A stretch of 64,000 nt of DNA, from positions 46,350,959 through 46,414,958 of the forward strand of contig OZ025252.1 in NCBI GenBank assembly GCA_964019135.1, read 5' to 3'. Shown here one piece after another: positions 1,042 to 52,340 of the stretch (within the stretch, counting starts at the first letter, position 1; each line of letters opens with the position of its first letter). The position numbers and the translations under genes are program-made. The notes beneath the pieces are model-generated. The model was not told the DNA's origin. It did not search any database and worked only from the letters and a program-made list of their open reading frames with translations. Source of the stretch: Arenicola marina (Eukaryota; Annelida; Polychaeta; Arenicolidae).

Positions 1042-4000
1042 GTATGTATTGATTTCACATAGTTTGGTAACCTGTAGGTGCCAGTAATGACATTTACAGA
1101 CATAACTGCTAGACCCTGTAAATGAATATTTTATGTTTAAAGTTACACATCCAGCAATATTTTTCTTGAAAAATGTAAAAACTATTTTGATTGGAAATGA
1201 TGTATTTATATTCTTAGCATAGAAGTACACCTATATTGTATGAAATAAAAACCCAGATATGTTGTTAAGCCTCTTTTTTGGCAAAATTAGTGCATCCCAT
1301 ATGAAAACGTGTGGCTTTCTTGTGTACTACCGGTACGTCATCGAAATATGCACATTGCAGCAGTTTTATACCTTTCATCATGCGATGACAGATCTACTTC
1401 TCATGAAGGTTACATTTATACAGTCAGACAATGTGTTCTAAATGTGTTTCCAAAATATTTCGAAAACCATAATTTAAGTAAAAAATTGCTGCATGAGCAT
1501 CTTTAAGCAACCTATTTGTCCATATACATAACCTTGTATCAGAAAAATAAAAATAAATGCTGGTACTTATAATTGCATCTGTATCACCTACATGTATACA
1601 TCCCTGTCTGTCTTCATTTATGTGATATGTGAATTTGTGTATGATTATATTTTGTGTGGTTTGACAGTGACTGGTGATGACTTGTGGAGGGGAGTCATTG
1701 CTGTCAGTAATGCTGGCAAGAAGAGGGGACGTGGCAAGAGAGTGGGCAGGAAGAAGACTACAAACCTAAACATTGGACAGTCTATTGGAGACGGTGAGGC
1801 TCATGATGCAGTGTTGCATTGCCTGTGCAACTTCTGTCCTTGTACTGTTCTCACTTCCTAGCAAGAACTTGGATGGAGCTGTCATTGCATTAGCCATTGT
1901 GCTGTCATTCAAGTGACCATTTTCTTTATTTCGCTGAATTGCATTATAAACTCTAAAGATTACATTGTAATATATAAATATATATAAATGTACTCCAACT
2001 GTTCTCTTTTTTAATTGCAACTTCTGTTTTACAAAGGGTGTGAAGCCAGGATAATGTAAGCATTTAGAGATATACAGTGAAAATGATATGTAATACCTCA
2101 CTTGTTATATAAAGTAGTTTTTCGCTATTTGAGAACCAGCCATCTTCGCGAATCTGGGTTTAGGCAATTAGCGATGACAACTAATGTAACCCCAATGATA
2201 TGTTTCATGTATGTGGTTGTCGCGTCCGCAGGGAGGGCGAACATCCTGTGGCCGGGTCTCAACGCCCCAGTGATGAAGAACAAAGAGGTGATGCAGCGCA
2301 AACAGCTTCCGGTAGACTCACAGCGTCAAGACCGCCTGGCGCAGCTGCGCGACAGCATGGGGCGTATCACCTACCCCAGCACGCCGCCCCTCATCAGGGG
2401 CTTCACCGGCGGCAGGATGGTCGGCTACCACTATGGGAAGCCGGACCCTATCGGTGACTGTACGTGTCGTACTGTGTATAATCAAATGTTTTAATTTTTG
2501 CTATGGTCTGGTTTTAATGGTTTAAATAGCGGTATGATGTCACAGGTGAGGAATGTAAGACCCCTTGATCGCGATTGGTTTGCCTGTTATTGATTATTGA
2601 TTATTCCCTAATATCGAAATACAAAAGGAATAATTAGCTATACAATGTCGTTACATTAAACTAATGGTGGTGCCATGAGTTTGCGATTCACGAACGAAAG
2701 TTTGCTCCATCTTACAGTCATTTACATTTGAATATTCGAGTACCACTGGCTGTAAACGTACTATGCAATGTCTGGTATGTGCATGTTTTCTAACAATTTA
2801 TTCTGATGTAATTTTCTCTTGTTTTTAATTCAGATAAATTTGAAGGTTTTGATTCAGTCCTTCTGGAGGTGCGTTTCCTGTGCTCGACTGTCTAATATGT
2901 AACAAATGATGGTAGAGCTTGTACATTAAAGTTACTATTTCAACAAAATATCAACAAGCCGGCTAATGAACCGATTAGTCTTAAAGTAACTGATAACGAT
3001 CGATTTTTGGGGCTGCCACCAGTAAAAACAAGTTACGCGACTTACCGAGTGCGACGCACGGGCTTCATATAGACTGATGCGCCAATTTTCTGCTTCTCAA
3101 CTCCTATGTTTACTTTTTATTGAAATACTAATCTTAACGTTAAATTAAAGGGGCAATGAAGATGAAATTAAGACTGAAGTTGAGAATACCTGACTAGTGG
3201 CATACGTTTAACTTAGGCATGTTATGTCCTGTTGTTTGTTTTCACAGCTCAAGCTAGTCACCAACATGACAGGCAATCTTGGGCGGAAACAGAGGTTCAC
3301 GGCCTTCATGATAGTAGGAAACGGAAATGGTTTGGCCGGTAAGTACCGTTCGTAAACAAGTTGGATCGCTAAGGCTGTGAAATATATGCCGCAATTTTTC
3401 ATTGAGTTAATTGAGCAATTAGGTTCTATTTTGTCAGTGTCATTGTTCCATATATTGAAAATTGAGGACATGCACAGACCCATTATGACACTGGCTGACA
3501 AACCGTGACTATCTTCCAGGTCTCGGACTGGGAAGAGGGACCAGGGTGTCTACTGCAGTGCGCGTGGTGAGTTTGTATTATACTACATTATTAAGGCGGT
3601 CAATACTTAATGTTCTTTTCACCTTTTCGTGTGAAGTTAATAGTTACGCTGACTATTTAAAGTGGTGTAGTTATTCTCCACGACACATCTTAAAATGTTA
3701 AAGTGCTTACATGTTTGCACCATTATGTCAAGGGTATCCGATGCCATCAGCGAGCAATATATACAGTGTCATTGTTTGGTCGACAGGCCAAGAACCGCGC
3801 GGCTCAAAGTCTGGTGTACGTGCCTCGGTTCCAGGATCACACAGGTAAAGAGGATATGCATATGGCATTGCGTCGAGTGCGAGATGGGTTTATCTCAGCA
3901 CAAGTCTCCAAAATCCTGCCTGAGCCTTTAAGCGAAGGCAGGATTTCGGAGATGCGTGCTGAGATAAACCCATCTCGCACGAGAAGCAATGCCATATGTA

Positions 4001-20225: not shown

Positions 20226-21203
20226 TGGCGCACTCACAGAAATGAAGCAGACAACTGTTTAACATTTTTAGCGTCTTTATTATTATATTACCGCGTGGTT
20301 GACAGGTTAATGCGCCAATATAAACTGCATAACAAGTTCAACGCAGTCATTATAATTACATGCACCTATATTTTTTACAAGCGGGGGGGGGGGTGGGGGA
20401 GGGGGAATGTTTTCGACTGTAACGGTCCGTAACATCCCCTTAAACAACCCCCCCCCCCTTGGATCCGCCTTTGCATTGCATCTACAAAATGTCTCTTTCC
20501 AATGTATTGCATCGTTGGAAAGCCCGACTTTTACAAGGCTTATCGAGTTTGCCAAAAAGTAATTGCATTCCTCGTACAAGTCTAAAGCAATAATGAAACA
20601 AAAGGGATTTTATCGCCTGGGTTCATGCAGGACACATTTTAGATGATCTTTACAACTGCACAGTGCTGGTACGAAGTGGGTTTAGAAGGATGTTGACGGC
20701 CTAAAGGGGTTAGCGGGTCTATATATGAAGGCTTAATTAAGACTATCAGCGCAAGATAGAGTTGCAATGTTTTCAAACCGTTAAACCCGCACAGCAATGA
20801 AAAATGGGGTGAGTAGATTGGCGTCCTCGTAGGCATGTAGTCTATGGGGCATGGTAACCGCTATACAACTTCTGCCTAAAGATGGTCGGCCGAGTTCACC
20901 GTAACATTTGACGGCAATAACCTGCGAGGTTATTGCGTCGACTTGGACAACCCGCCCCATGTCCCATCTGCACATGGCGGGCAGTGAACCAAACCGTCAC
21001 AGTTGTCATGCGTTAGCTCGAGATTTACAACTATCAGCTTTGCGACCTTTTTGAGAACAATTGCTTTAAATTATTAGATGATTTGTCGCATGGGCACAAC
21101 ATGGCGAAAAGATGATTGTCACCAATGCTCGGTGTCCGCTTGTTTCTTAACCCTGAAATGAATGTCGTGCAAAACAACTCTAATCAATAGTTATGGTTAA
21201 GGT
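20226..21203. other. intergenic with poly(G)/poly(C) patch
   Basis: Contains a G-rich patch near 20381-20405 and a C run near 20450. No gene recognised. Confidence 0.5.
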
Positions 21204-21911
21204 TTGCATATTTTGCATAGTACATTTGCAGCTTTCATTGACATTGAGAAAGCCTTCGACCGTATAGACCGAAATCTATTATGGCTAAGACCATTACAAT
21301 ATAACATAGATGGCAAGGCTTATTTGGCTCTCCGCTCTTTGTATCGTGATACACAAGCATCTATCAGGGTAAATGAATTATGTACACAGTGGTTTAATGT
21401 CAATTACGGTGTCCGCCAAGGTGACACCCTTTCACCCACGCTTTTTAATCTATATATCAATGATTTAGCTGTTCAACCGAAAGCACTAGATGGTGGAATT
21501 ATAGTTGGCAATGAAACAGTATCTATCTTACTATATGCTGATGACATTGTACTCCTGGCGGAAAGTGAAGATAAGTTACAGCAGATGTTAAGTTTTACAT
21601 GTGAATGGTGCAAAAAGTGGAAACTAAGCCTTAATATAAATAAGTCAGGTATTGTTCACTTCCGGCCTCGTAGGCGGAGACGAAGCATGTTTGAATTTTA
21701 TTTCGGGAATCAGAGAATATCGCTTGTCAGTAACTATAAATATCTTGGAGTCATATTTGACGAGCACTTGCTGTTCCTTGAGTGCTCTACGGTGCTAGCT
21801 GAATCTAGCGGGAGAGCCCTTGGAGGTATTATCGGTCGCTTTGTTACTATAAATATCTTGGAGTCATATTTGACGAGCACTTGCTGTTCCTTGAGTGCTC
21901 TACGGTGCTAG
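21204..21911 (+). pseudogene. LINE reverse transcriptase, broken
   Basis: Open for 235 codons from within the RT palm domain. It reads through motif A, the GVRQGD segment and the YADD catalytic box, then leaves its frame at the tandem duplication; the thumb-side sequence continues in another frame from 21881. Confidence 0.85.
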
Positions 21912-21955
21912 CTGAATCTAGCGGGAGAGCCCTTGGAGGTATTATCGGTCGCTTT
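21730..21955 (+). repeat. 113-bp tandem duplication inside LINE
   Basis: 21730-21842 and 21843-21955 are direct copies differing at one base (GTAACTAT versus GTTACTAT at the start). As 113 is not a multiple of three, it shifts the frame. The near identity implies a recent slippage or recombination event. Confidence 0.93.
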
Positions 21956-22477
21956 AAATCTCTTAAAAACGTGGGTTACGAAACGTTTACTCATCTTTAC
22001 CACGCAGGAGTTGTACCAATCTCTGACTATGGAGCTGGAGTATGGGGAATGGGTAGACTCGCTAAATGTAACTCCATTCATTACAGGGCTATGAGGTATT
22101 TTATGGGTGTTCATAAGTTCGCACCCATAGAGGCTATTACTGGCGACATGGGGTGGATGTTACCAAAGTACAGACGATATCTATGTATGCTACGGCTATG
22201 GAATGTTTTAGTGAAATTACCAGAGTATCGCTTACCGAAAATAATGTTTAATTGGGAATACGGACGAAAAGAAGGAACATGGTGTGGTGACATAGAGTCT
22301 ATACTAGACAAACTGGGGATGATTAATCTATTTGAAGCTAAGGAGGTATGTAATCTTGATGTATGTGCTACCCGTCTAACAGACCTGCAGAATATTGAAT
22401 GGAAAGAAAGCGTGCAATCAAAACCTAAGCTTAGAACTTACATAAGGCTTAAATATCACATCGAACCAGAGCCATAG
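21881..22477 (+). pseudogene. LINE ORF, middle part in second frame
   Basis: 198 open codons continuing past the duplication (SLKNVGYETFTHLYHAGVVP and onward), typical of the thumb and linker region after RT. It ends at a stop at 22475; the Cys/His region then resumes in another frame at about 22494. Confidence 0.75.
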
Positions 22478-22493
22478 CTCCGGCAATACCTGC

Positions 22494-22859
22494 ATGAGCA
22501 GGAGTCAGCGAGCCCTCCTCGCACAATTCAGGTGTGGTATTTTACCGTTGGAAATCGAAACGGGGAGATTTAGAACGAAGAAAGATCAACACTCTAACCG
22601 GTACAGGAGGAGGGAAGCGCATGAACGCTTATGTCGGATATGCTCATCCGGGGAGGTGGAAGATGAGGTACACTTTTTTTGCTGCTGTCGGGAGTGTAGT
22701 ACTCAACGTGAAAACCTGTATCGGAAAGTATCTCATCCTGATTTTATGGCCCTGTCTAACTATGATAAATTGACACATCTAATACAAAACTACTGGAAGG
22801 AGGTAGCGCAATTTTTAAGCAATGCATGGATGTCCCGGCGTAGTTTGTTATATAACTAA
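22494..22859 (+). pseudogene. LINE ORF C-terminal Cys/His part
   Basis: 121 open codons with ALLAQFRCGILPLEIETGRF and RLCRICSSGEVEDEVHFFC, the CxxC..H..C cluster common at the end of such LINE ORFs, to a stop at 22859. The 3' UTR of about 300 bases follows, with a pyrimidine-rich stretch at 22920-23010. Confidence 0.78.
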
Positions 22860-31858: not shown

Positions 31859-32717
31859 TCCTGATTTGCCCAATGAAGAATAACTATCAACTTTCAACGT
31901 TCAATCATTCGTTTATTTGCTTGTGACAAGGGAATCTGTAGTAATACAAGGTAATATGTTATATATAACTAAACCATGATGATTTATGACAAATGATTAT
32001 GGGCACTCAGCGACATCACTAATTTACATTTCTCTTTAAAATTACACATTTCTATTTAAAATATGCTTCGTTGTAATTGAGCCAATAGCAGTGAATGCTT
32101 GTTTAATTTCTTGTCGAGATGGTGATCAATAAACAAATAGCCCAACCCCTACGGGCGAAGGCGTAACGATGATGCCGCGTATAACGAACGCCTGTAACGT
32201 ATCAGTTCTTAGATGTTGGTATCAATTGTTAGGTGCTGCAGGAAATAAAAACATATGGATGTCCTCCCACAAATTTCGTTATAAACAACCACAACACGTG
32301 ATAGATGACTCCCTGTGGATCTTGACGTATCTGCTAGCGATATATACACATTACACCACTTACGAGAAGTATTATAATAAAATAATGATGATCTTTTATA
32401 ACAATTACTTACTTACACGAAGTATTACAATTCATATAAACACATCAAGTTAATGACATAACGTTTTTGCACAAGACGCGTTTATAGGAATGTACACTAA
32501 CCGTATTGCCTAATATAGGTCCCCAATCCAAATTATTATCCTAACCCCACCGCGAAACATAAACTGAACAATTTCAATATTAATGAATAAATGGGTAACA
32601 CATTTGGGTAATTACTCTGCGGAGTGGGGGCATAAAATCGTCCTGTTTGCTACCGACTCAGCAAGTAACACTTCAAGTTGGTAGGAATGATATTCGGCTC
32701 TGTCCAGTAATTGTATA
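31859..32717. other. 3' flank of prohormone-4 gene
   Basis: Probably includes the 3' UTR of the minus-strand gene. Candidate AATAAA hexamers on the minus strand lie near 31911-31916 and at 32718-32723. No other feature recognised. Confidence 0.4.
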
Positions 32718-32723
32718 TTTATT
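32718..32723 (-). terminator. AATAAA directly after prohormone-4 stop
   Basis: On the minus strand the stop TAA is followed at once by AATAAA. If used, it would give a very short 3' UTR; the next candidate is about 800 bases further, so usage is uncertain. Confidence 0.35.
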
Positions 32724-32917
32724 TTAGGCGAATCCGCTCTTGAGGAGGCGGGAGAATATGAAATGGACCTCGCCCCACGCGTTGGGCGGCATGTCGAAGA
32801 GCTTCTCAAGGACCTCTTCTCTGTTCCTGCGCACGGCGTCCAATGCCTTGCGCAAGTTGACGGCATCCTTGCTGGACAGGCCCACGCGGCGCCGGAAGTC
32901 ATCCACGGTCTGACTCA
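32724..32917 (-). CDS. prohormone-4 coding exon 4 (C-terminal region)
   Basis: Acceptor CTCGTTACAG. Encodes VSQTVDDFRRRVGLSSKDAV, then ALDAVRRNREEVLEKL and ends FIFSRLLKSGFA before TAA at 32726-32724. The SQTxDDF opening and LLKSGF ending recall the family's conserved C-terminus. RR pairs occur, but no peptide is predicted here. Confidence 0.9.
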
Positions 32918-35900
32918 CTGTAACGAGAACGTACGCCATATTGACGTCAACGAGACGTGGAACGAGATTGAGGCATACGCGCGGAAAACGGAAGCCACCT
33001 AGTGGTAAATCTGGTAGGTTAAAAAAGTGTAACACTCCATGTAACAGAAAAGAAAGGAAACGAATTGCTACAAGGTGGCCACAAGCACGAGATCAGAGAT
33101 ATAGAACAATGATAGAAGCAGGCTTTGACACCAAAAAGATGACCCTATATATATTGCAAATTTGGTGTAAACACCCACAACCATGACATCATATTTCAAG
33201 GATATCCTTAGTATCTCTATAATAGTCTACTGGTGCACTTGATTTGATTTAACTGGCATTGTAAGATGAACGCAATGAAATTACTCAATTTAATCAAGTG
33301 AATTTAATCTGAAGTTGACTACGTCTTAGTTACACATGTTTATTCAACGATGGTTGCAGACACATGTTTATCACAACTCAATAGTAACGCATAGGGACAA
33401 TATTTTTGATTAAGTCGTAACTTTCATTAAAGAGCCTCATTGACCTTGCATGGACAAATCCTTCCAAATATGTTTGTCAGCCTCTGACCATATCTGACGG
33501 TATGACCACAGGCCTCTCCTGTGCTTTTCTTACTTGTTCCATCGGAAGCAGACAAATGGGGGCAGGAAATTGCTTGTTTCGGGTACGCCCTGGACTGGGT
33601 CATAAATCTATCGCCTCTGCGGTATTAGAGGCAGACATGACACGCACAGAGCGCCACCTAGCGGTTGCGTCGCGGGAACGGCGCTGCAGACGCCCATGAA
33701 CCATCTTGGCGGATTTTCCGGCAGACGCCGTGGGACGCATCCGTCTTAGTTAGACTGTCGGCTGAGGGTGTCCGAGACCAAGTCGCCAGGGTCCAGACCA
33801 TCCTCAAGACCACTGCTCCGGACTTCGCCCCTCCCCCCCACCCCCCTCGACCCTTCATCCGCCACCCCTCCCTCCATCAACGGTCAGCTGCAGGAGTCCC
33901 GTACATCCCGTCTACCGACCACGGTCGAAATAATAACATCCTCACACCGAAAAATGCCATTGCTGTCGTCACACACCTCTCTCCTAGCAATGCCATGGCA
34001 ACACTCACCGCCTGTCCCTTTTGATTTATTCAAGTCAGCGCCAGTCGCGGCTAATCACTGGGCGCCCTCGCGATTACATCGCCGCGCCCTTGTTACGGTA
34101 GTAGGAGCACAGGACGTGGTGGCGGGGGTGGGGGGGGGGGCGGTGGCGCTGGTGGCGGTGCTGGTGGGTGTGTGGGTGAGGAGAGGGTAGTAGCGGTGGC
34201 AGTGGCAGAAGAATTTGTCAAAAAGAAGGACTGAGGGGGTTAAGGGACGGGACGTCGTATGATGTCTCCGTGTCCCGGTGGCTTGAGGACTGATTAGAAT
34301 GGAAGGTACATCGGGACTTCAAGGGGACTTCTTCAATCTTCGATGACTGGTCATCAGCCTTTAAGTCGCCATTGCCCCTCAACACCCCACTCCCAACCAA
34401 CCCAAGCGCCACCCTTCCAGGCCCCAACACTCTCAGCTCAAACCCCCATCAGCGCAGGGATGCTTGGGCAAAGGCGGCACGCGGAGGGATACATTTACAA
34501 GCAATAAGCGAGAATAACTGATTAGCGTGAAACTCACGTTAGACATCCCTGGATCAGCAATCATTAGTTAATCATGTTAGGCAAATTTTATGTAAACCCC
34601 ATTATTATATATATATTATCGTCATTTTCATATTATTTTTGCATATATTTAAGATTTTTTTATTATTTTAAGACTTCAATTTTAACGGAAACAAAACTGC
34701 GTACAGAACTTACGACACAACGATGTCATGTCTGTGTCATTGGAAACTACAGTAGAGGCAGCACTGATTGTCAGACTGAGACTCCTGTACTGCGGATCGC
34801 GTTATAGATAGACTTGCGGCTTACATGGACGCTGCGGCCCACACTGCACATCACACTATGGGAAAACACTGGGGAATATACTGAGACTAACACTGGGGTA
34901 ATAAATTGAGCGATGCATTGGGAAATGAATGCGAAGGAGCACAGAGCAATACAATGGGTGCCATTGTATTATTTGGGGAAGATCGTGACGGACGGATATG
35001 TCTGTATCACCAAAGATATGTGTGCATCACAAAGGCCCTATAGTGACATCGCTCTATCTCACGGTAACGACATTTCCGAATTAAGTAACGAAAAACTATG
35101 TAAAAGGAAAAGCAGCAAGCGTTATCAGGAAGAGCACGAGACCGACGGTCATGATATATATAACACGTGTCACAGTGTCCCAGGCACTGCCGAAAGTTCA
35201 GGACTGCTCTCCCAAGTCACCACCGAGCTGGTGCCCTTTCACCGACATCGCCGTGCTTTGTTAAATTGGCAAGGTCAGTCATCGACTTAACATTTATAAT
35301 GTATGGATGATTTCCCACCCGGCCAATTTCAACAGTGCCTGCGGCAAAAACAAGATGGTAGCCAACGTGGCCATGAGAGCACCAGCCGAACGCATGAAAA
35401 TTGCATAAGACTACAGAGCGATGATATCGGGTCAAGGACGTGTGGATAATTTCATTTTATCCGTCCGGTCAGGGTGGGCATCCAATGGGACGTCCCACTT
35501 CATTGTCTACGTGCGTCGAGGTAATATAATATTCCAGGCGAGGTACGAATATGATGAAAAGAAATTTATATGTGGATTGACACATCCGTCCATTGCAAAC
35601 CCTCCAGGGGTGAGGTCGTAGTGGGGTTGAGAGGGAGGGGAGGGGGGGGGGCGGGCATGTCCTGGCATGGGCACGTGTATTATTTATTCATGGCGCATCA
35701 AAGGGCGGCGGCTTCTGACGTCATAGGGCGTTGAGGGAGAGTAAGGTTTTCTATTCCTTACGCGTATTTTTCTACAAAAACTTTGTAGCGTGACATGGAC
35801 CCCGTAAGGCTGAACGCAGCCGACCGGTGGGAAGAAAGGGGCCGGAGAACAGTAGATTCATTTGCTATTACCCTACAACCCTGAAGTATGACCCATGCCT

Positions 35901-38900
35901 TGAAAGGCTTCCGACCACAAACACAGAGCGTAATTTCAGTCGTCAGATGCACCTAACAATCGAACAAAAAAACATCAGAAAGGTTAAAAATGCATGTTTT
36001 TTTATACACTTCGCGTCAGTTGTAACATAGCAAGTTAATTGAACTACAAAACATAGTGGCGCAGAGTTCGTTGCCTTGCCACGCCTGGTGGCGAGTGTGA
36101 AACGATGTTTCCCTGACAGAACGTCACCCAGGCTCGACATCACGCGTCTGCGGTTTTCAGTCTTGACTTGCCCTGCCTACTCCCCGGCCGCCACTCCATG
36201 ACCCTTATTTGGCTTTTTTGTCACTCCGCCTCCTCAGGTGACATAATGGAAGGTGCAGTCTGCCACCATTGGGAATTAGATGGAGCGCAACGGGAGGAGG
36301 AGGCGGGGGACGAGGAGGTGGAATGAGGGAGGAAGAGGGCAAACGTGAATGAGAGGGAATTGGTGATGACGCCGGCTGAAAGCGAACGCTGTAGTTGCCT
36401 CACATAATGGATCATCGCCTGCCGTCGCGGCCTCGTTCCGAGCGCCCCTGTGATCACCCCGGTGACGCCCAGCCAGCCTCGCAGTCCCTCGCAGCGCTGA
36501 CCCAGACTCCAGAACCACGGTGGCGAGTTGAGCGTCATTACACGATATGCCTTTTTGCAGTACACACCAAATCTGACTCCGGCGACCTCCGAGAGACCGC
36601 AGCTGCGTCTAGCTTCATTAGCCGCGGTACCAGGCGTGACAAAACTCCGTCACTATGCCATTTACATACAATTAGCCGTTTTTCCATCCACCCAGTGTCT
36701 CGCGTAGGCTCGTGTAGCAATTGTACCGGCCAGGAGACCGCGGCGGCCAAGCCGGGAATGGGCCAGACCACCGCAGAAGTGTATTTAAATGAAATGGAGA
36801 TTCCTATTAGCGGGTGATGCGTAATCGTTGAAACATTAACCGTACGTCTTAGTTTAGCGCACAAGAAATGGCCCGCGTAAAGGACGCTTTCACCTATATT
36901 GATATATATAGCTTGAATTAAATGTTTTTCGAGACCACCTTTTATTCAAGTAACCTTGGCAAGCACATTGGCCAGCATTCCTGTGGCGATAGTGATCACT
37001 CTTGTGGAAAAACGCGGTACTTCCCAGGCGGGACGGGTCCCACGGTGCCCAGCACCCCTCCAGGGGTTACGACGCGTGGGCGGGCGAGGTGACTTCACCA
37101 AGTCATTGACTCAAGGCCATGACTAAACAGACCAGTAAGCTTCTTGATCAAAATGAATCCCTCTCGGGGGAAACCCCAACCCCAAGCCACAAGGTCCCTC
37201 ATGGCGGCAGCAATAGTCCCGGGATACGAGGACACATGCAAGCCCAGCTCCAGGGAATTTCAGCGCCCTCTACGGCATTGACCCCCACGCTGTATCGAGA
37301 ATGAACAACCATACAGCGGTCACCCCGAGATGTCAATTTCTCATCATATATCAGATTGGACATACGGGAAAATCGATTGAGCTCTTCCAACCATGGTGAC
37401 GTGTCGTGACTGTGGCTGCCTCCGTGGTGGGCCTATTCTGGCAGGTTTCCGGGTCTCATGTTCATTTAGATAGTCGTAAATCTAAAGTGATGGCCCGTAT
37501 TTGCAATATTTCAATATTGGTCTCTTTCTTTCAATGGCACGGGAGGACGTTTGATTTGGGGGTGAATGTGGGGGAGGGGGTAAGCGGGGGGGGGGGGGCG
37601 GTGACAATGGACTCGAGGGGCTGGGGGTACCGGCCCAGAAATATGGCGACAATGCCGCTCCAAAGCTGCCATCAGTAGAATCTGGAAGGTTCCAAACTCC
37701 CGATCAGAGGGCTGATGACTCATTGTGGGGCGGGGTAAAACACAATCCTGCCCACCCCCCAGACACATATGGAGGTGGAGCTGGGGGTCACGGGGTGAAG
37801 GAGGAGTGCGGTGGGGCTGGGGAGTGGGGGGGGGGAGTGCAGAGGGCGTCACCTCCGCCCGTCCTACCCGATCCGGTCCCTCTCTCTAATGATATACCGC
37901 GGCAACCTGGATGTGTTTTTTGTCGATCATGCCCCAACTGATAAGCCTTTACGTTTATACCGTATATACTCACCCATATTTGTAACTGATTCAGTTGCTA
38001 AGTTGCCAATGGTTTACAATGCTGTTATAAAGCCTTCGATCACTAATCAATAAGAGGTATGTTGGCATGCCGACCTTGGTCACTAAAGGAGGGTGTAGTG
38101 CCGGCAGAAAGTTTACCATAGGACGAAATAAGAAAACTGAATAGGTGACCTGAACAAATGCTTGTATAGATAGTCGCGTCAAAAGGAAAGTGAACATTGA
38201 ATCAAGAAACATTGCATTGATAAGGAAGTATAAAATTATGACCCTAAGAAACATGCTCGTATCTTATTATGTAGAATCATAATGAAGTAAATTAAACTCA
38301 ATATGCGTGCACTTATAAAGGCAATTCATATAACTTAACACTAAACCTTGACTTAACAATATGTGATACAATACCATAATGGCGGTTGTGTTCGTATGTC
38401 ATACTGTAACTCACCTGCCAAGCCGTGAGCGATCTTGACTGGGCTCTGGCCACCGAACATGCTGGGAACGATCCACGCACTCTGGGACTCCAAGAAAGCC
38501 ATCAGATCCTCCACTGGTGGCCGGTTAACTGCAACAGTCGAGAGTGAATCCGTGAATCCGTAGTCAAGTGAAAAGCAGTCAGTGAAACGATAACCCATTT
38601 TCCTCTGCATTATTTTGAAACTTTGTTAATGGCGATTTATGTTACAAGATTTAAGAAAATTTTAGGGCAGTTTAAGAGGAATATATGGCATCTTTCAAAT
38701 ATATTAATCGTAGCGAAACCCCAACCATTGTGACAGTCGTAACATGCCATTTCACCTTTTATAACGAAAGTGTTTGCGAGTACCTAGGACACGTGATTGC
38801 TGTTTATGCGCCTCGAGGCGAACGTAATTTCCAGTTCAATTGATGTTTAACTCGATTTAAAGTTAGTAGCGACGCGTTCGCCACCTGCTGATTTGAAACA

Positions 38901-41900
38901 GTGTAGTGCACAAGCTATGAACATAGGAAGACAGTCAGGTCATTTATAAGGTCACGGTAACTCTGCGCTGCCTGTCACGTTATTTAAAGCTGTTAAAAAA
39001 AATCTTTCCCACGAGGAAGATAATAGTATAAGAGATCGGCACGGGCGCAAAATTCTCCGGCCGTCCCGTGCCCGCAACAAAGAACCAGCGGCTGTGTCTC
39101 ATGCCACTTTTTTTCTCGTGTCCGTGCCCGCCCGTAGACATCCCGTAAAGACCATGTGCCTTCGCGCATACGATATTATATGAAACTGTATCGGTCATGC
39201 ATATTTCTAATCTATTATAAAGCTTTCATTTCTTAACGAATTATCCACACCGGACATTGTATCCAGTATATATCTGGTCATTAATAACCATTCTATAGGT
39301 GGATCATTGTCAATAATAATCCGGGGCCCGAATGTTATACACTGTATCTATACCCATAATTTAAAAATAAATGATTTATCCAACGTAACAAAGCATCCCA
39401 CCATTAAACACCAGTAAAAGGAGTTTTCTGGACGACGGTAAAAATGCTAGCATTGCGATGTCGTGGATAGTCGACACACATAGCGACTGGTCTCCTATGT
39501 GTCGTGTTAAAGCGCAGCGTAAGGCCATGGGTCATGCCAGGCACGGTGCCACCCGGAATTCGATAGCCAGCGGAGTGCCAGTTCAAGTTGCACCGAAAAC
39601 TGTTGGCCTGTTTCAAAGTCCCACTTCCACAGTAATTGATCCTCTCAGACGGAGCTAAACTAGGTTAGAAGTACCATAATGACTTCTTTGCCCGTGTTCG
39701 CCTTTCGTATTCAAGCCGCAAAAAGCTCCGGCCCCGTATAGTTGACCAAGGTAGGAAATCGAATTTAGAGGCGCAGATTGGCGGCGTAATTGCGCAGACT
39801 AACGTTGTAAAAGGCATTGGTGGAGTAATCTGAAGTGACCAATAAGAATTTATTCTAGCACGGCCGTTTAGTCACAAGTTAAATGTCCCAAATGACCTTT
39901 CATCTGAAGTTCTATGGCATGCGATGTGACGAGAGGTCATCCATCTAGGAATTAACCTCCACTTCGGATCGACATTCCTCAGTTCCCATGGCGACATTCG
40001 ACTTCAGACCTTAATTCGATCCATTTTGTTGTTAAGCTTGTCGGGTCGGGGGATAAGGGACACGAACGACACTAACACAATTAGCATAACATCTACGCTC
40101 ACAAGCGAATTACTCTCGTCAATAAACAAGGACGTCATAAGTTGAGAGGAGAGGAGCCTGTTCTCGTCGTGTCACCATGTTGAACGCGAACGTTCGCATC
40201 ACAACCAGGGTTTCCCAAATGTGAGAATAATTCACGCAATTGTCAGTTTTGGTCCCCAAGCTACACATAGAAGTGCGCAGAAAAGCATAGATATACGAAA
40301 GAATAAATCGTAGATAAAAACAGGTAGGCTGCGTTAAGATTGATCTACATTGCATTATCAGAATGAAACTCTCTTTTGACTGTTCCCCTTTTGACATAAT
40401 AGCTGATCGAATCTGAAGGCGTGGATGGGTAATCAGTTTTGTTAAGTGTTAATTGGTATTTGTTACACGATGTCTTCGGCTGAAGAATAACTCACACAGT
40501 ACTCACACCCAGTCCGTAACTACGCGGAATGCGTGTGAGATGAGGAGTGTGAGGCCTTAGATCATACTCGGCAGGCACGGGACTCTGATTTGTCAGCATT
40601 TCAGATGAACTATTATATATTATAGATGGATTCTATTACCACAGTCAAATTTCTGACAGAAGTCAGCAAAATCAGCAATAAAAATCTAAACAAATAGGCA
40701 ATGAAAATCTGAAAAAATAGGCGGAGGTTACAATTATTCATGTTCATTTTCATATTATTTATTTATGTGTATATACGTACAGGCTGTGCACATATCCGGG
40801 TTCTCGTCGTAGCCATCGTTGCAGTCGATGTTGTTGTCGCAGACGTAGGCCATCGGGATGCACTCGTTCTTTGTCTTGCAGGGGAATGGCTTTTCTGGTT
40901 GATTGCACGGGTTGCCGGCAACTGTAACCAATGAATCATGCAATGTCGGTGTCACTGTGTTAAGATTAATCGAATATACGCGGGACTACTAGGGGCAGAA
41001 GTGCTAACACTGGTTTGTTCGTTCAATTAAGTCCAATTAAAGCCATATCTGAGCGACACTCTGCGCCAATGCCGCCCAATAGGGAACAGTTTTGTGTCGA
41101 ATCCCTCATTGTTACACACCTATAGAACACAGTGTGCCTCTGGATGACCCACACCATTCAGTACGCATTTGGCCCATACATAATTGAGGTTTGCATTAGC
41201 GCGTGAAACCACTTTGCCCCTGAGACGTGGCAATATCTGACTGATGTAAAAGAAAACGTTGCCATATTTGCAAGCTTTGGTGAGAAATGACAGACACCCG
41301 ACACAGTCCGCTGTTAATCATTCACGCCGAATCCCGCGATCGATTCGATAACGGAAGTACCGCGACTGAAGAGACGCAAACAATATGGCCGCAATGCCGG
41401 ATATGTCCATGACCGGTCTATAGACTGCATTGGGAGGCGGCCTTCACGGGGTGGAACTCCGCCAGCGACACGTCCGACAATGGACTCGGGCGATGGAGGG
41501 CTATTTGTCTTAATATTTGTCTCCCATTGGATTTGGGCGAATCACGCCCCAAGTGGCAATACCCGCCACCCACCACGCCAAATCCACGACTGGCATGAGC
41601 ATAGAGCCGGCAGAGAAATGAGGGGATCACTACATCGGCACCCAAAAAATGCCTGGCATTGTGTTTACGGCTACAATCAATCCCTCCACCTGCCGCCAAA
41701 GCTTTCCATACAGCGGGTGGGACGGGTGGGGGGAGGGAGGGGGCGGGGGAGTAGAGACAATGAGTGGGAGTACAGAGGGGTTAAACTGCTTTGGACGACG
41801 GGAAAGACTTACATTTTTTTTTGGTAGTCCAGAAGAATTGCCTATGTCCAATAATACTACCTCATGGTCCAATGCGGCGAAATGGCCCCCATATCGAATA

Positions 41901-43514
41901 TTTAGGCGAAACTGCTCAAATATTAAATTAAAATGTGAGTTTATCGCTATTTAGGCACGTCCCATTGCACACGTCGGTACTAAAGTGGTCGTAAAAAGGA
42001 GATTTTAGGGAGGATGACATCCAGAAAGGAAACTGCAACGCGATGAGCTCAGAATATCCTGCATTGGCTGAAGCGTTTTATCCATTTCAATTTCTGTAAG
42101 AGAGTCGCGATTTTCTCTGACAAAGAGCACGAACACTTGTCCAAAAATTGTGTCATTGGGGATTTGTGAATCGTCGTTCGCATGATATGGTCTCGAATAA
42201 ATCCAGTTAAAACTTTACCAACCGCTCGCCAAGCGCTCGCCACGCGCGTGCAAAGCGATCCCAATGTTTTCAGAGATTTATGACCTGTTATGGCTGCCAT
42301 GGCCTCTGGTTTTATGTCAGAAACAACATGTTTTACCGTCGAGGTGTTACTTCATGGCGGAACGTACATTTCTTTACACACTAGGGCAAGCCACACTAAG
42401 CAGGACATTTCTAAGTTTTATGTTTAATGGCTATCCCAATCCGTCCGGGAGCGAAACGGGGAAGCTGGAATCCGCGGCGTAGTAGGCCACGTCACGCGGC
42501 AAAAGGAAATCAAATATCAGTGAGACATGCGATAGTACTACCCTCTTCACACGGTTTTGTTGCCTTCTAATCTTTCGTGCTGCTGCAGGAGGAGGAGAAT
42601 TTTCTGGGAGAGACTAATGGGAGAAAGGGGTGAGGGGGTGTGGGGTCTGAGGCTGAGTGGCAGGGACATTCCGCAGGCGCGACTCTCGTGGATTATCTCG
42701 CCGCACGAGATGTCATGAAGATGACCGGTTTAATTAGCAGAAGGAAGATCAGATCAACGTCCAAGGATTTTTTCCATCTGGTTGACGTCAATAAACAAGG
42801 TTACCATCGCAGGCGTCTGCCTCGAGCCAGATGCGGACAATTACTGGTGGCACCGCAGAAGGCTGCGCAGCGACAGTGACAGTAGCGTATATAAATGGTA
42901 TGCTATGGATATACCAATAATGATCAATAATGATGTTTTTTGTGGTCTTGCTTATTCTTGGGACGCTATCAGACTACTTGCCAGTTGGAAATTACACTGT
43001 AAAGGGACCATAACGAGTTCTCAAAAAGAGGAACTTAGTATAATCAAACATTTAATCGAATAGAATAGTTGCATTGATGCTATCCAAAGCGAGAACACAA
43101 TATTATGTTTCATATCGGAAGCGAGAAGTGAAATACTGTGTACACAAGAGGGGATGGTGTTTTGGGCTGGCCGCAAAACCTGCCTGGTGACTCGTTATCG
43201 TAACCGTCCACGATATACCACTCAATCATTTGTGAGCAAGAACTTGTATGTGCGTCTAAATATATGGTGAATTAATAACTACGACTTTGACGACGATAAT
43301 CGATGTCGTGACCGATTAACATTGGTAACAAAAAAACATCATTGTCTGGAGTAACTATAGCGTGTCGCGTACCTTCGAATGACCGTTTCTGTTCCGGGTA
43401 CAGCTGTTCTCTGTTCCGTAGTAGGTCTGCCAGGTCCACCTTGAGAGCGGAGCACGCGGTGGTGAGGACAACCAGCGACAACAGCGCCAGGTCTACCGGG
43501 CGACGACCAGCCAT
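32724..43514 (-). CDS. prohormone-4 (IDLSRF-like) neuropeptide precursor, four coding exons
   Basis: A secreted neuropeptide precursor. Exons 43514-43373, 40921-40781, 38528-38415 and 32917-32724 join through GT..AG introns, all in phase 1, to 196 residues plus stop. In order: signal peptide (residues 1-23, core LALLSLVVLTTACSA); short peptide LKVDLADLLRNREQLYPEQ ended by K43-R44, a prohormone-convertase site; LDL-receptor class A module with six cysteines (53, 62, 68, 75, 81, 92) and acidic DCNDGYDE; then NRPPVEDL and a C-terminal region ending FSRLLKSGFA. This plan matches honeybee prohormone-4, where the peptide starts IDLSRF, followed by an LDLa module and RPPVEE. Here the peptide core is VDLADLL, so the IDLSRF name applies only by position. 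ATGGCT sits directly after a splice acceptor, so an upstream exon must exist. Confidence 0.92.
32918..38414 (-). other. prohormone-4 intron between coding exons 3 and 4
   Basis: 5,497 bases. Holds C-rich (33826-33850) and G-rich (34115-34200, 35630-35655, 36290-36330, 37555-37860) patches and TGACGTCA sites at 32942 and 35716. No nested gene recognised. Confidence 0.8.
37555..37845 (+). repeat. G-rich low-complexity region
   Basis: Runs of G up to about eleven, separated by short spacers, on the plus strand; capable in principle of G-quadruplexes. Since the gene is on the minus strand, its transcript is C-rich here. Confidence 0.7.
38415..38528 (-). CDS. prohormone-4 coding exon 3 (RPPVED)
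   Basis: Acceptor GACTGTTGCAG, donor GTGAGT. Encodes NRPPVEDLMAFLESQSAWIV, then PSMFGGQSPVKIAHGLA. The RPPVE(E/D) motif just after the LDLa module is the clearest family match. Confidence 0.93.
38529..40780 (-). other. prohormone-4 intron between coding exons 2 and 3
   Basis: 2,252 bases, GT..AG, with no recognised feature; open frames within it are short. Confidence 0.8.
40781..40921 (-). CDS. prohormone-4 coding exon 2 (LDLa module)
   Basis: Acceptor TGGTTACAG, donor GTACGT. Encodes one complete LDL-receptor class A module: NPC, FPC, NEC, YVC, IDC and DMC supply the six cysteines, and DCNDGYDE the calcium-binding acidic residues. One exon equals one domain, flanked by phase-1 introns, the usual form of a shuffled extracellular module. 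Confidence 0.95.
40922..43372 (-). other. prohormone-4 intron between coding exons 1 and 2
   Basis: 2,451 bases. Contains G-rich DNA near 41715-41755 and a TGACGTCA at 42783-42790. No nested gene recognised. Confidence 0.8.
43373..43514 (-). CDS. prohormone-4 coding exon 1 (signal peptide and peptide)
   Basis: The exon starts with ATGGCTGG right after the acceptor CATCCTGTCTTCAG and ends TTCGAAG before donor GTACGC. It encodes the signal peptide, the peptide LKVDLADLLRNREQLYPEQ and the KR site. The next base upstream is intron, so translation starts here or in the preceding exon. Confidence 0.92.
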
Positions 43515-50930: not shown

Positions 50931-51130
50931 AGCAGGTAGTGAACAGCTAATATGATAATCATGGTGTATGCCCCAGCACTGGCATACAACACCGTCTCCC
51001 TTTTCCATGCGCTTTCTGTCTGTCTCTTGCATTTCTTCCCTTCCCTATCTATTAGTCTACCTTTGTCTTTCTGTCCCGTTGTCCAGCTCCTCATCTTTAC
51101 GCAGCTCTCCAGTTTTATCTTTATCTACCT

Positions 51131-52340
51131 CTCTCGCTCTGGTTCTCTCGCTCTGGCTCTCTCGCTCTGGTTCTCTCGCTCTGGCTCTCTCGCTCTGGTT
51201 CTCTCGCTCTGGCTCTCTCGCTCTTGTTCTCTCGCTCTGGTTCTCTCGCTCTGGCTCTCTCTCTCTGGTTCTCTCGCTCTGGCTCTCTCGCTCTGGTTCT
51301 CTCGCTCTGGCTCTCTCGCTCTTGTTCTCTCGCTCTGGTTCTCTCGCTCTGGTTCTCTCGCTCTGGCTCTCTCGCTCTTGTTCTCTCGCTCTGGTTCTCT
51401 CGCTCTGGTTCTCTCGCTCTTGTTCTCTCGCTCTTGTTCTCTCGCTCTTGTTCTCTCGCTCTGGTTCTCTCGCTCTGGCTCTCTCGCTCTGGTTCTCTCG
51501 CTCTGGCTCTCTCGCTCTGGTTCTCTCGCTCTGGCTCTCTCGCTCTTGTTCTCTCGCTCTGGTTCTCTCGCTCTGGTTCTCTCGCTCTGGCTCTCTCGCT
51601 CTTGTTCTCTCGCTCTGGTTCTCTCGCTCTTGTTCTCTCGCTCTTGTTCTCTCGCTCTTGTTCTCTCGCTCTGGTTCTCTCGCTCTGGCTCTCTCTCTGG
51701 TTCTCTCGCTCTGGCTCTCTCGCTCTGGTTCTCTCGCTCTGGCTCTCTCGCTCTTGTTCTCTCGCTCTGGTTCTCTCGCTCTGGTTCTCTCGCTCTGGCT
51801 CTCTCGCTCTTGTTCTCTCGCTCTGGTTCTCTCGCTCTGGTTCTCTCGCTCTTGTTCTCTCGCTGTTGTTCTCTCGCTCTTGTTCTCTCGCTCTGGTTCT
51901 CTCGCTCTGGCTCTCTCGCTCTGGTTCTCTCGCTCTGGCTCTCTCGCTCTGGTTCTCTCGCTCTGGCTCTCTCGCTCTTGTTCTTCCGCTCTGGTTCTCT
52001 CGCTCTGGTTCTCTCGCTCTGGCTCTCGCTCTGGTTCTCTCGCTCTGGCTCTCTCGCTCTTGTTCTCTCGCTCTGGTTCTCTCGCTCTGGTTCTCTCGCT
52101 CTGGCTCTCTCGCTCTGGTTCACTCGCTCTGGTTCTCTCGCTCTTGTTCTCTCGCTCTTGTTCTCTCGCTCTTGTTCTCTCGCTCTGGTTCTCTCGCTCT
52201 TGTTCTCTCGCTCTTGTTCTCTCGCTCTGGCTCTCTCGCTCTGGTTCTCTCGCTCTGGTTCTCTCGCTCTGGCTCTCTCGCTCTGGCTCTCTCGCTCTGG
52301 TTCTCTCGCTCTGGTTCTCTCGCTCTGGTTCTCTCGCTCT
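51131..52340 (+). repeat. 14-bp minisatellite, 86 copies, with higher-order units
   Basis: Tandem CTCTCGCTCTGGTT with three main forms: A (GGTT), B (GGCT) and C (TGTT). Reading the forms in order gives three consecutive higher-order units of 16, 15 and 16 monomers: 51229-51452, 51453-51662 and 51663-51884, each ABABABCAABCA(A)CCC. They are preceded by a partial unit (51131-51228) and followed by a scrambled part to 52330. No stop arises in several frames, so long Ser/Leu-rich and Arg/Glu-rich frames cover both strands; these are not taken as genes. In the sense of the host transcript (minus strand) the RNA would be purine-rich (GAGAGAACCAGAGC). Confidence 0.97.

Follow-up and report, generated by a model that had tools for sequence, protein, structure and literature searches.

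Prohormone-4 represents a protostome family that is present in molluscs (PMC6425005), has been reported in lobster and crayfish (PMC4018349, PMC5141488) and is tabulated for a ribbon worm (PMC7460313). In crayfish, cleavage at a dibasic KR could free a mature peptide of 178 residues (PMC5141488). Members have been counted as neuropeptides since the work on the bee brain, have been linked to foraging and are present in cone snail venom, and no receptor is named for prohormone-4 in the excerpts of the literature examined. PANTHER presumably holds a family called “prohormone-4”. NRAP-1 is a secreted protein tuning N-methyl-D-aspartate (NMDA)-type glutamate receptors, and it is reportedly released presynaptically, binds NMDA receptors and alters their gating. 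A paper of 2017 on this protein is cited in PMC12303390. In this study, we analyzed a stretch of 64,000 nucleotides from the lugworm Arenicola marina (GCA_964019135.1, contig OZ025252.1, positions 46,350,959 to 46,414,958; hereafter the window), in which a gene on the minus strand encodes a prohormone-4 precursor homologous to a protein of solved structure, named in PDB as an NMDA receptor auxiliary protein (chain 8v14).

The predicted precursor is spread over four coding exons. Exon 1 (43514-43373) contains the ATG, a signal-like segment (residues 1-23), a short peptide (residues 24-42), the dibasic KR (residues 43-44) and the first residues after the cut, followed by a GT donor. Exon 2 (40921-40781) encodes the LDLa module with its six cysteines (residues 53, 62, 68, 75, 81 and 92) and the acidic calcium-site pattern CDNNIDCNDGYDE; LDLa is the sole Pfam match above the cut-off in the whole protein (PF00057, residues 57-88, E = 1.9e-6). 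Exon 3 (38528-38415) carries the FNRPPVEDLMAFLES block, including RPPVED at residues 97-102, and exon 4 (32917-32724) the C-terminal part ending with LLKSGFA and a stop codon. Joined by the splicing predicted from GT-AG signals, with all three introns in phase 1 (donors GTACGC, GTACGT and GTGAGT), the exons form one open frame of 196 residues plus stop, as proposed in the initial annotation, whose outer limits coincide exactly with the start and stop codons. The signal-like start is indicated by a hydropathy maximum of 3.08 inside residues 9-17, and cleavage at A23|L24 is predicted by inspection only. Residue positions, hydropathy and the Pfam match agree with the previously suggested precursor plan. 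They also match the plan of the prohormone-4 family (PMC8398477): a signal peptide (by hydropathy and inspection), a dibasic-ended short peptide, a single six-cysteine LDLa module and a long cysteine-free C-terminus. The bases upstream of the ATG (CCTGTCTTCAG) resemble an acceptor, and a non-coding first exon is therefore possible. An AATAAA at 32723-32718 (minus strand) directly follows the stop codon and thereby suggests a very short 3' untranslated region; a scan of 531 bases (32200-32730) revealed no further AATAAA and no ATTAAA. A Rfam search of the window yielded no match at the gathering score, and HTH_26 at residues 12-32 (E 0.14) was rejected as falling below the cut-off.

Comparison of the whole protein with solved structures (phmmer against PDB, best 60 of 78 matches examined) revealed 8v14_A, “NMDA receptor auxiliary protein”, as the best match (E 1.9e-15). 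The alignment is a single 59.6-bit stretch covering residues 49-110, from before the LDLa module through CTAFNRPPVEDLMAFLES (CTA..RPPVE..AFL), whereas the alignments of the LDL receptor, the VLDL receptor and LRP proteins end by residue 95 among these best 60 matches. With the mature part alone as query, LRP2 ranked above 8v14 (3.4e-17) owing to the combined scores of 37 listed repeats; the strongest single repeat, however, reached 21.2 bits compared to 59.0 bits for 8v14. For the family comparison we used a provisional honeybee prohormone-4 sequence, here and throughout. This sequence matched 8v14 with E = 5.6e-41 over 163 residues (bee 31-193), beginning shortly before the KR, which is common to the window protein, the bee protein and 8v14, and reaching to the GF near the end. 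The strength of this match speaks for the soundness of the provisional bee sequence, whose peptide also agrees with the printed IDLSRFYGHFNT (PMC8398477). The same match suggests that prohormone-4 and the 8v14 protein, taken as NRAP-1, belong to one family.

With a profile built from these two sequences, the provisional bee protein and 8v14, the whole window protein obtained 82.9 bits. The tail without LDLa (residues 113-196) obtained 19.8 bits, while shuffled tails reached 4.6 bits at best among the 753 of 1000 shuffles listed; the similarity thus exceeds chance. In a global alignment of residues 113-196, the score to the bee protein was reached by 0 of 5000 shuffles. We further searched 4741 frames of a six-frame translation of the window and 24 of 26 fetched loci (all except two mitochondrial ones; some overlap the window or each other). 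Exon 2 was the top profile match among these tested sources, with 45.5 bits, the next different exon following with 35.3 bits. Taken singly, exon 2 matched profile positions 4-50 (E 2.2e-12), exon 4 positions 89-161 (0.0019) and exon 3 positions 37-64 (0.055); exons 3 and 4 rank below many LDLa exons, yet they match their parts of the profile in collinear order. Overall, homology to 8v14 is present outside the LDLa module, although the tail alone is weak in alignment or not found in search. Together with the 8v14 match and the profile score, the collinear exons give good support to the identification as prohormone-4.

Conservation differs considerably between the regions of the protein. Identity to the bee sequence amounts to 8/18 in the signal, 4/15 in the peptide, 18/39 in the LDLa module, 11/20 in the RPPVE block, 4/19 in the rest of exon 3 and 18/64 in exon 4; the corresponding values for 8v14 are 19/38 (LDLa), 10/20 (RPPVE block), 5/19 (rest of exon 3) and 10/58 (exon 4). 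The LDLa module and the following RPPVE block are the best-kept regions. The earlier observation that the module is better kept than the peptide stands, and a candidate reason for this conservation is that the protein is homologous to the NMDA receptor auxiliary protein.

The predicted N-terminal peptide LKVDLADLLRNREQLYPEQ (43445-43389, minus strand, translated from codons 24-42 of exon 1) directly precedes the KR; it is unrepeated in the window and lacks a glycine before the KR for amidation. Its calculated monoisotopic mass is about 2312.25. The initial annotation had described it as a changed core peptide that keeps (V/I)DL but loses SRF. The VDL is indeed kept and the core IDLSRF is absent, as the annelid sequence reads LKVDLADLL; we accordingly do not class it with the arthropod IDLSRF-like peptides. 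Compared with the bee peptide IDLSRFYGHFNT, sequenced from brain, it shows 2/12 identities at offset 2 (score 6; reached by 10.1% of 100,000 shuffles for identities and 0.66% for score) and, from residue 1, a single identity with a score of -10. The oyster precursor contains the printed peptides MSVDFSRL and PYLLS (PMC8398477); aligned from residue 1, LKVDLADL and MSVDFSRL share 3/8 identities with a BLOSUM score of 15, a fit reached by 0.63% (identities) and 0.07% (BLOSUM) of 100,000 shuffles. As these alignments were picked after viewing the sequences, all of these shuffle figures are generous. In ants, IDLSRFYGHINT and IDLSRFYGHFNT have been described, and an IDLSRF-like peptide appears in brain imaging (PMC10194420). 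The peptide of Conus victoriae prohormone-4 is IGFPGFSTPPR (PMC5100318), and one cone snail prohormone-4 class apparently encodes no mature peptide (PMC5450551). The first seven residues of 8v14 do not align to IDLSRFYGH and may belong to the construct. Since the printed molluscan precursors already lack the bee motif, and the oyster fit is better than that to the bee, the claim that a conserved core was changed is weak. We favor an interpretation of the annelid peptide as a lophotrochozoan form that has diverged, and not as an abrupt departure from an otherwise fixed core.

Considering these results, we regard the gene as probably being the annelid member, by orthology, of a prohormone-4/NRAP-1 family of protostomes. 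Its likeliest main product would be the protein composed of LDLa and C-terminal part, with NMDA receptors as target and the peptide being secondary. If the gene is expressed in this animal, as we would expect, the signal peptide would direct the precursor into neuronal secretory vesicles, where a prohormone convertase would cut after the KR, resulting in the co-secretion of the 19-residue peptide with a protein of 152 residues that comprises LDLa and the C-terminal part. The LDLa module would fold around calcium and, jointly with the RPPVE segment and the C-terminal part, bind NMDA-type glutamate receptors and alter their gating as NRAP-1 reportedly does; the short peptide may be a propeptide that evolves rapidly, or it may serve as an additional signal of minor weight. 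An action of the secreted protein at NMDA receptors is suggested on the premise that function follows homology. A candidate partner is found in the lugworm's own genome, where GluN1-like exons on C1 show 54-65% identity to a provisional GluN1 query. These exons lie in two neighboring pieces about 26 kb apart (C1:64430078-64432107 and C1:64456312-64458163), which may have arisen by tandem duplication; an internal stop is present in one match of the first piece.

Several observations weigh against this interpretation. Other LDLa proteins match as well, and those of the enteropeptidase heavy chain, with E-values of about 1e-6 and weaker, extend past the LDLa module to residue 113. When only the C-terminal 102 residues were searched, no 8v14 match was obtained in PDB up to E 10; the names of the two matches obtained (best E 0.06) look like designed repeat proteins, and both were taken as chance. 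In the global alignment of residues 113-196, the tail is weakly like 8v14 (z 4.0, a score equaled by 2 of 5000 shuffles). About 13 residues that bee and 8v14 both have are absent from the second half of exon 3, and as the gap falls within one exon, it is not a splice error. Furthermore, we equate 8v14 with NRAP-1 on the basis of the depositors' molecule name, and the N-terminal peptides of bee and oyster are real products, those of oyster by mass spectrometry (PMC8398477).

This last point leads to the alternative that the gene is a classical neuropeptide precursor, in which the active product is the 19-mer, or a pair of shorter peptides, with a receptor of its own, and the LDLa part only aids folding, sorting or processing. 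The bee peptide obtained from brain, the two oyster peptides (PMC8398477) and the ant brain imaging (PMC10194420) fit this scenario, as do the V-D-L retained in the annelid peptide and its fit to the oyster peptide, which beats most shuffles in a post hoc alignment. However, the peptide varies within the family (IGFPGFSTPPR, PMC5100318) and is seemingly missing in some members (PMC5450551), and the window peptide is neither repeated nor preceded at the KR by an amidation glycine. We therefore consider a classical precursor possible, but unlikely. It is rather improbable that both products are active, with the peptide acting via one receptor and the LDLa protein at NMDA receptors: this would agree with the KR kept in the window protein, bee and 8v14, but conservation of the peptide is weak.

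It is very improbable that the gene encodes some secreted LDLa protein without relation to the family, or that the exons do not belong together. LDLa modules are very common in the lugworm genome, and the enteropeptidase alignment, too, continues beyond the module. Here, however, the similarity crosses introns and continues outside LDLa, a single open frame runs through all four exons, and exon 2 leads the profile matches in the tested sources, which contain part of the genome's LDLa exons. Searches of the lugworm assembly (867 Mb, 762 contigs) revealed no second copy of the gene: of 118 matches, four represent this gene, and none of the others reaches residues 144-196. Two of the four next-best matches were inspected (on C3 and C12), and they lie amid several LDLa stretches. 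A pattern search of viral and prokaryote contig collections gave 8 and 115 stretches, none of which was confirmed, as expected for an animal gene.

For the orthology to NRAP-1 with the secreted protein as main product, which we prefer for this gene, extension to the whole family is an evenly balanced proposition: the insect, mollusc and annelid prohormone-4 proteins together would constitute the NRAP-1 family, with a secreted NMDA receptor auxiliary protein as ancient main product and the name-giving peptide as a free-drifting by-product. If prohormone-4 is an NRAP-1 protein, NMDA receptors become its immediately testable target. Among the open-licence papers searched, we found none linking prohormone-4 with NRAP-1; protein family databases may already group them. 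Judged from the sequences, what is new here is the homology of prohormone-4 to the NMDA receptor auxiliary protein, the peptide change being expected variation. The Platynereis neuropeptide survey was confined to precursors in which no other Pfam domain occurs (PMC3890597) and would consequently have passed over this precursor. If our interpretation is true, neuropeptide catalogues excluding Pfam-domain precursors would overlook such annelid proteins.

Besides this gene, the window contains an exon of the mitochondrial ribosomal protein uS5m (2087-2491, plus strand; PF21251, E 2.3e-13) and a reverse transcriptase remnant (21201-22859, plus strand; PF00078 at 21201-21908, E 5.3e-24) harboring a direct duplication of 113 bases with 100% match (21733-21955). 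A 14-base tandem repeat of about 87 copies at 51130-52340 leaves all six frames open for more than 300 residues, and the open reading frames at this position are therefore repeat artefacts. Elsewhere in the genome, intronless open frames of about 1000-1300 residues with LDLa matches were found at L020:1259-4600 (C8), L022:617-3925 (C18) and in many further matches. Both frames submitted to Pfam showed LDLa, LRR and a 7tm_1 region (7tm_1 slightly under the cut-off in L020), and a third of this kind (L021) was judged by eye only. These frames presumably resemble the snail receptor GRL101, and their family looks expanded in this genome. On the mitochondrial contig (15,942 bases), the protein genes share a strand and are arranged as cox1, cox2, atp8, cox3, nad6, cytb, atp6, nad5, nad4L, nad4, rRNAs, nad1, nad3 and nad2, which we take to be the annelid ground order; cox1 was assigned by Pfam, the others by eye, and the rRNAs were placed via a gap and tRNA-Val.

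Among the known systems, honeybee prohormone-4 shares with the annelid gene the signal, the short peptide, the KR, the single LDLa module, RPPVE and a tail ending with K(S/T)GF, whereas the annelid peptide is without IDLSRF, exon 3 is about 13 residues shorter and exon 4 is 18/64 identical. The 8v14 protein has the LDLa module with the CTA..RPPVE..FL segment, the KR at an equal place and the tail in common with it; it differs in the part corresponding to exon 4 (10/58 identical). Oyster prohormone-4 follows the same plan, and its MSVDFSRL is akin to the annelid LKVDLADL position by position, but mass spectrometry detected two short peptides in oyster (PMC8398477). The cone snail prohormone-4 and prohormone-4-like precursors are likewise lophotrochozoan with a diverged peptide (PMC5100318, PMC5450551); in contrast to the annelid gene, they derive from venom glands, and some forms repeat a peptide or seemingly have none.

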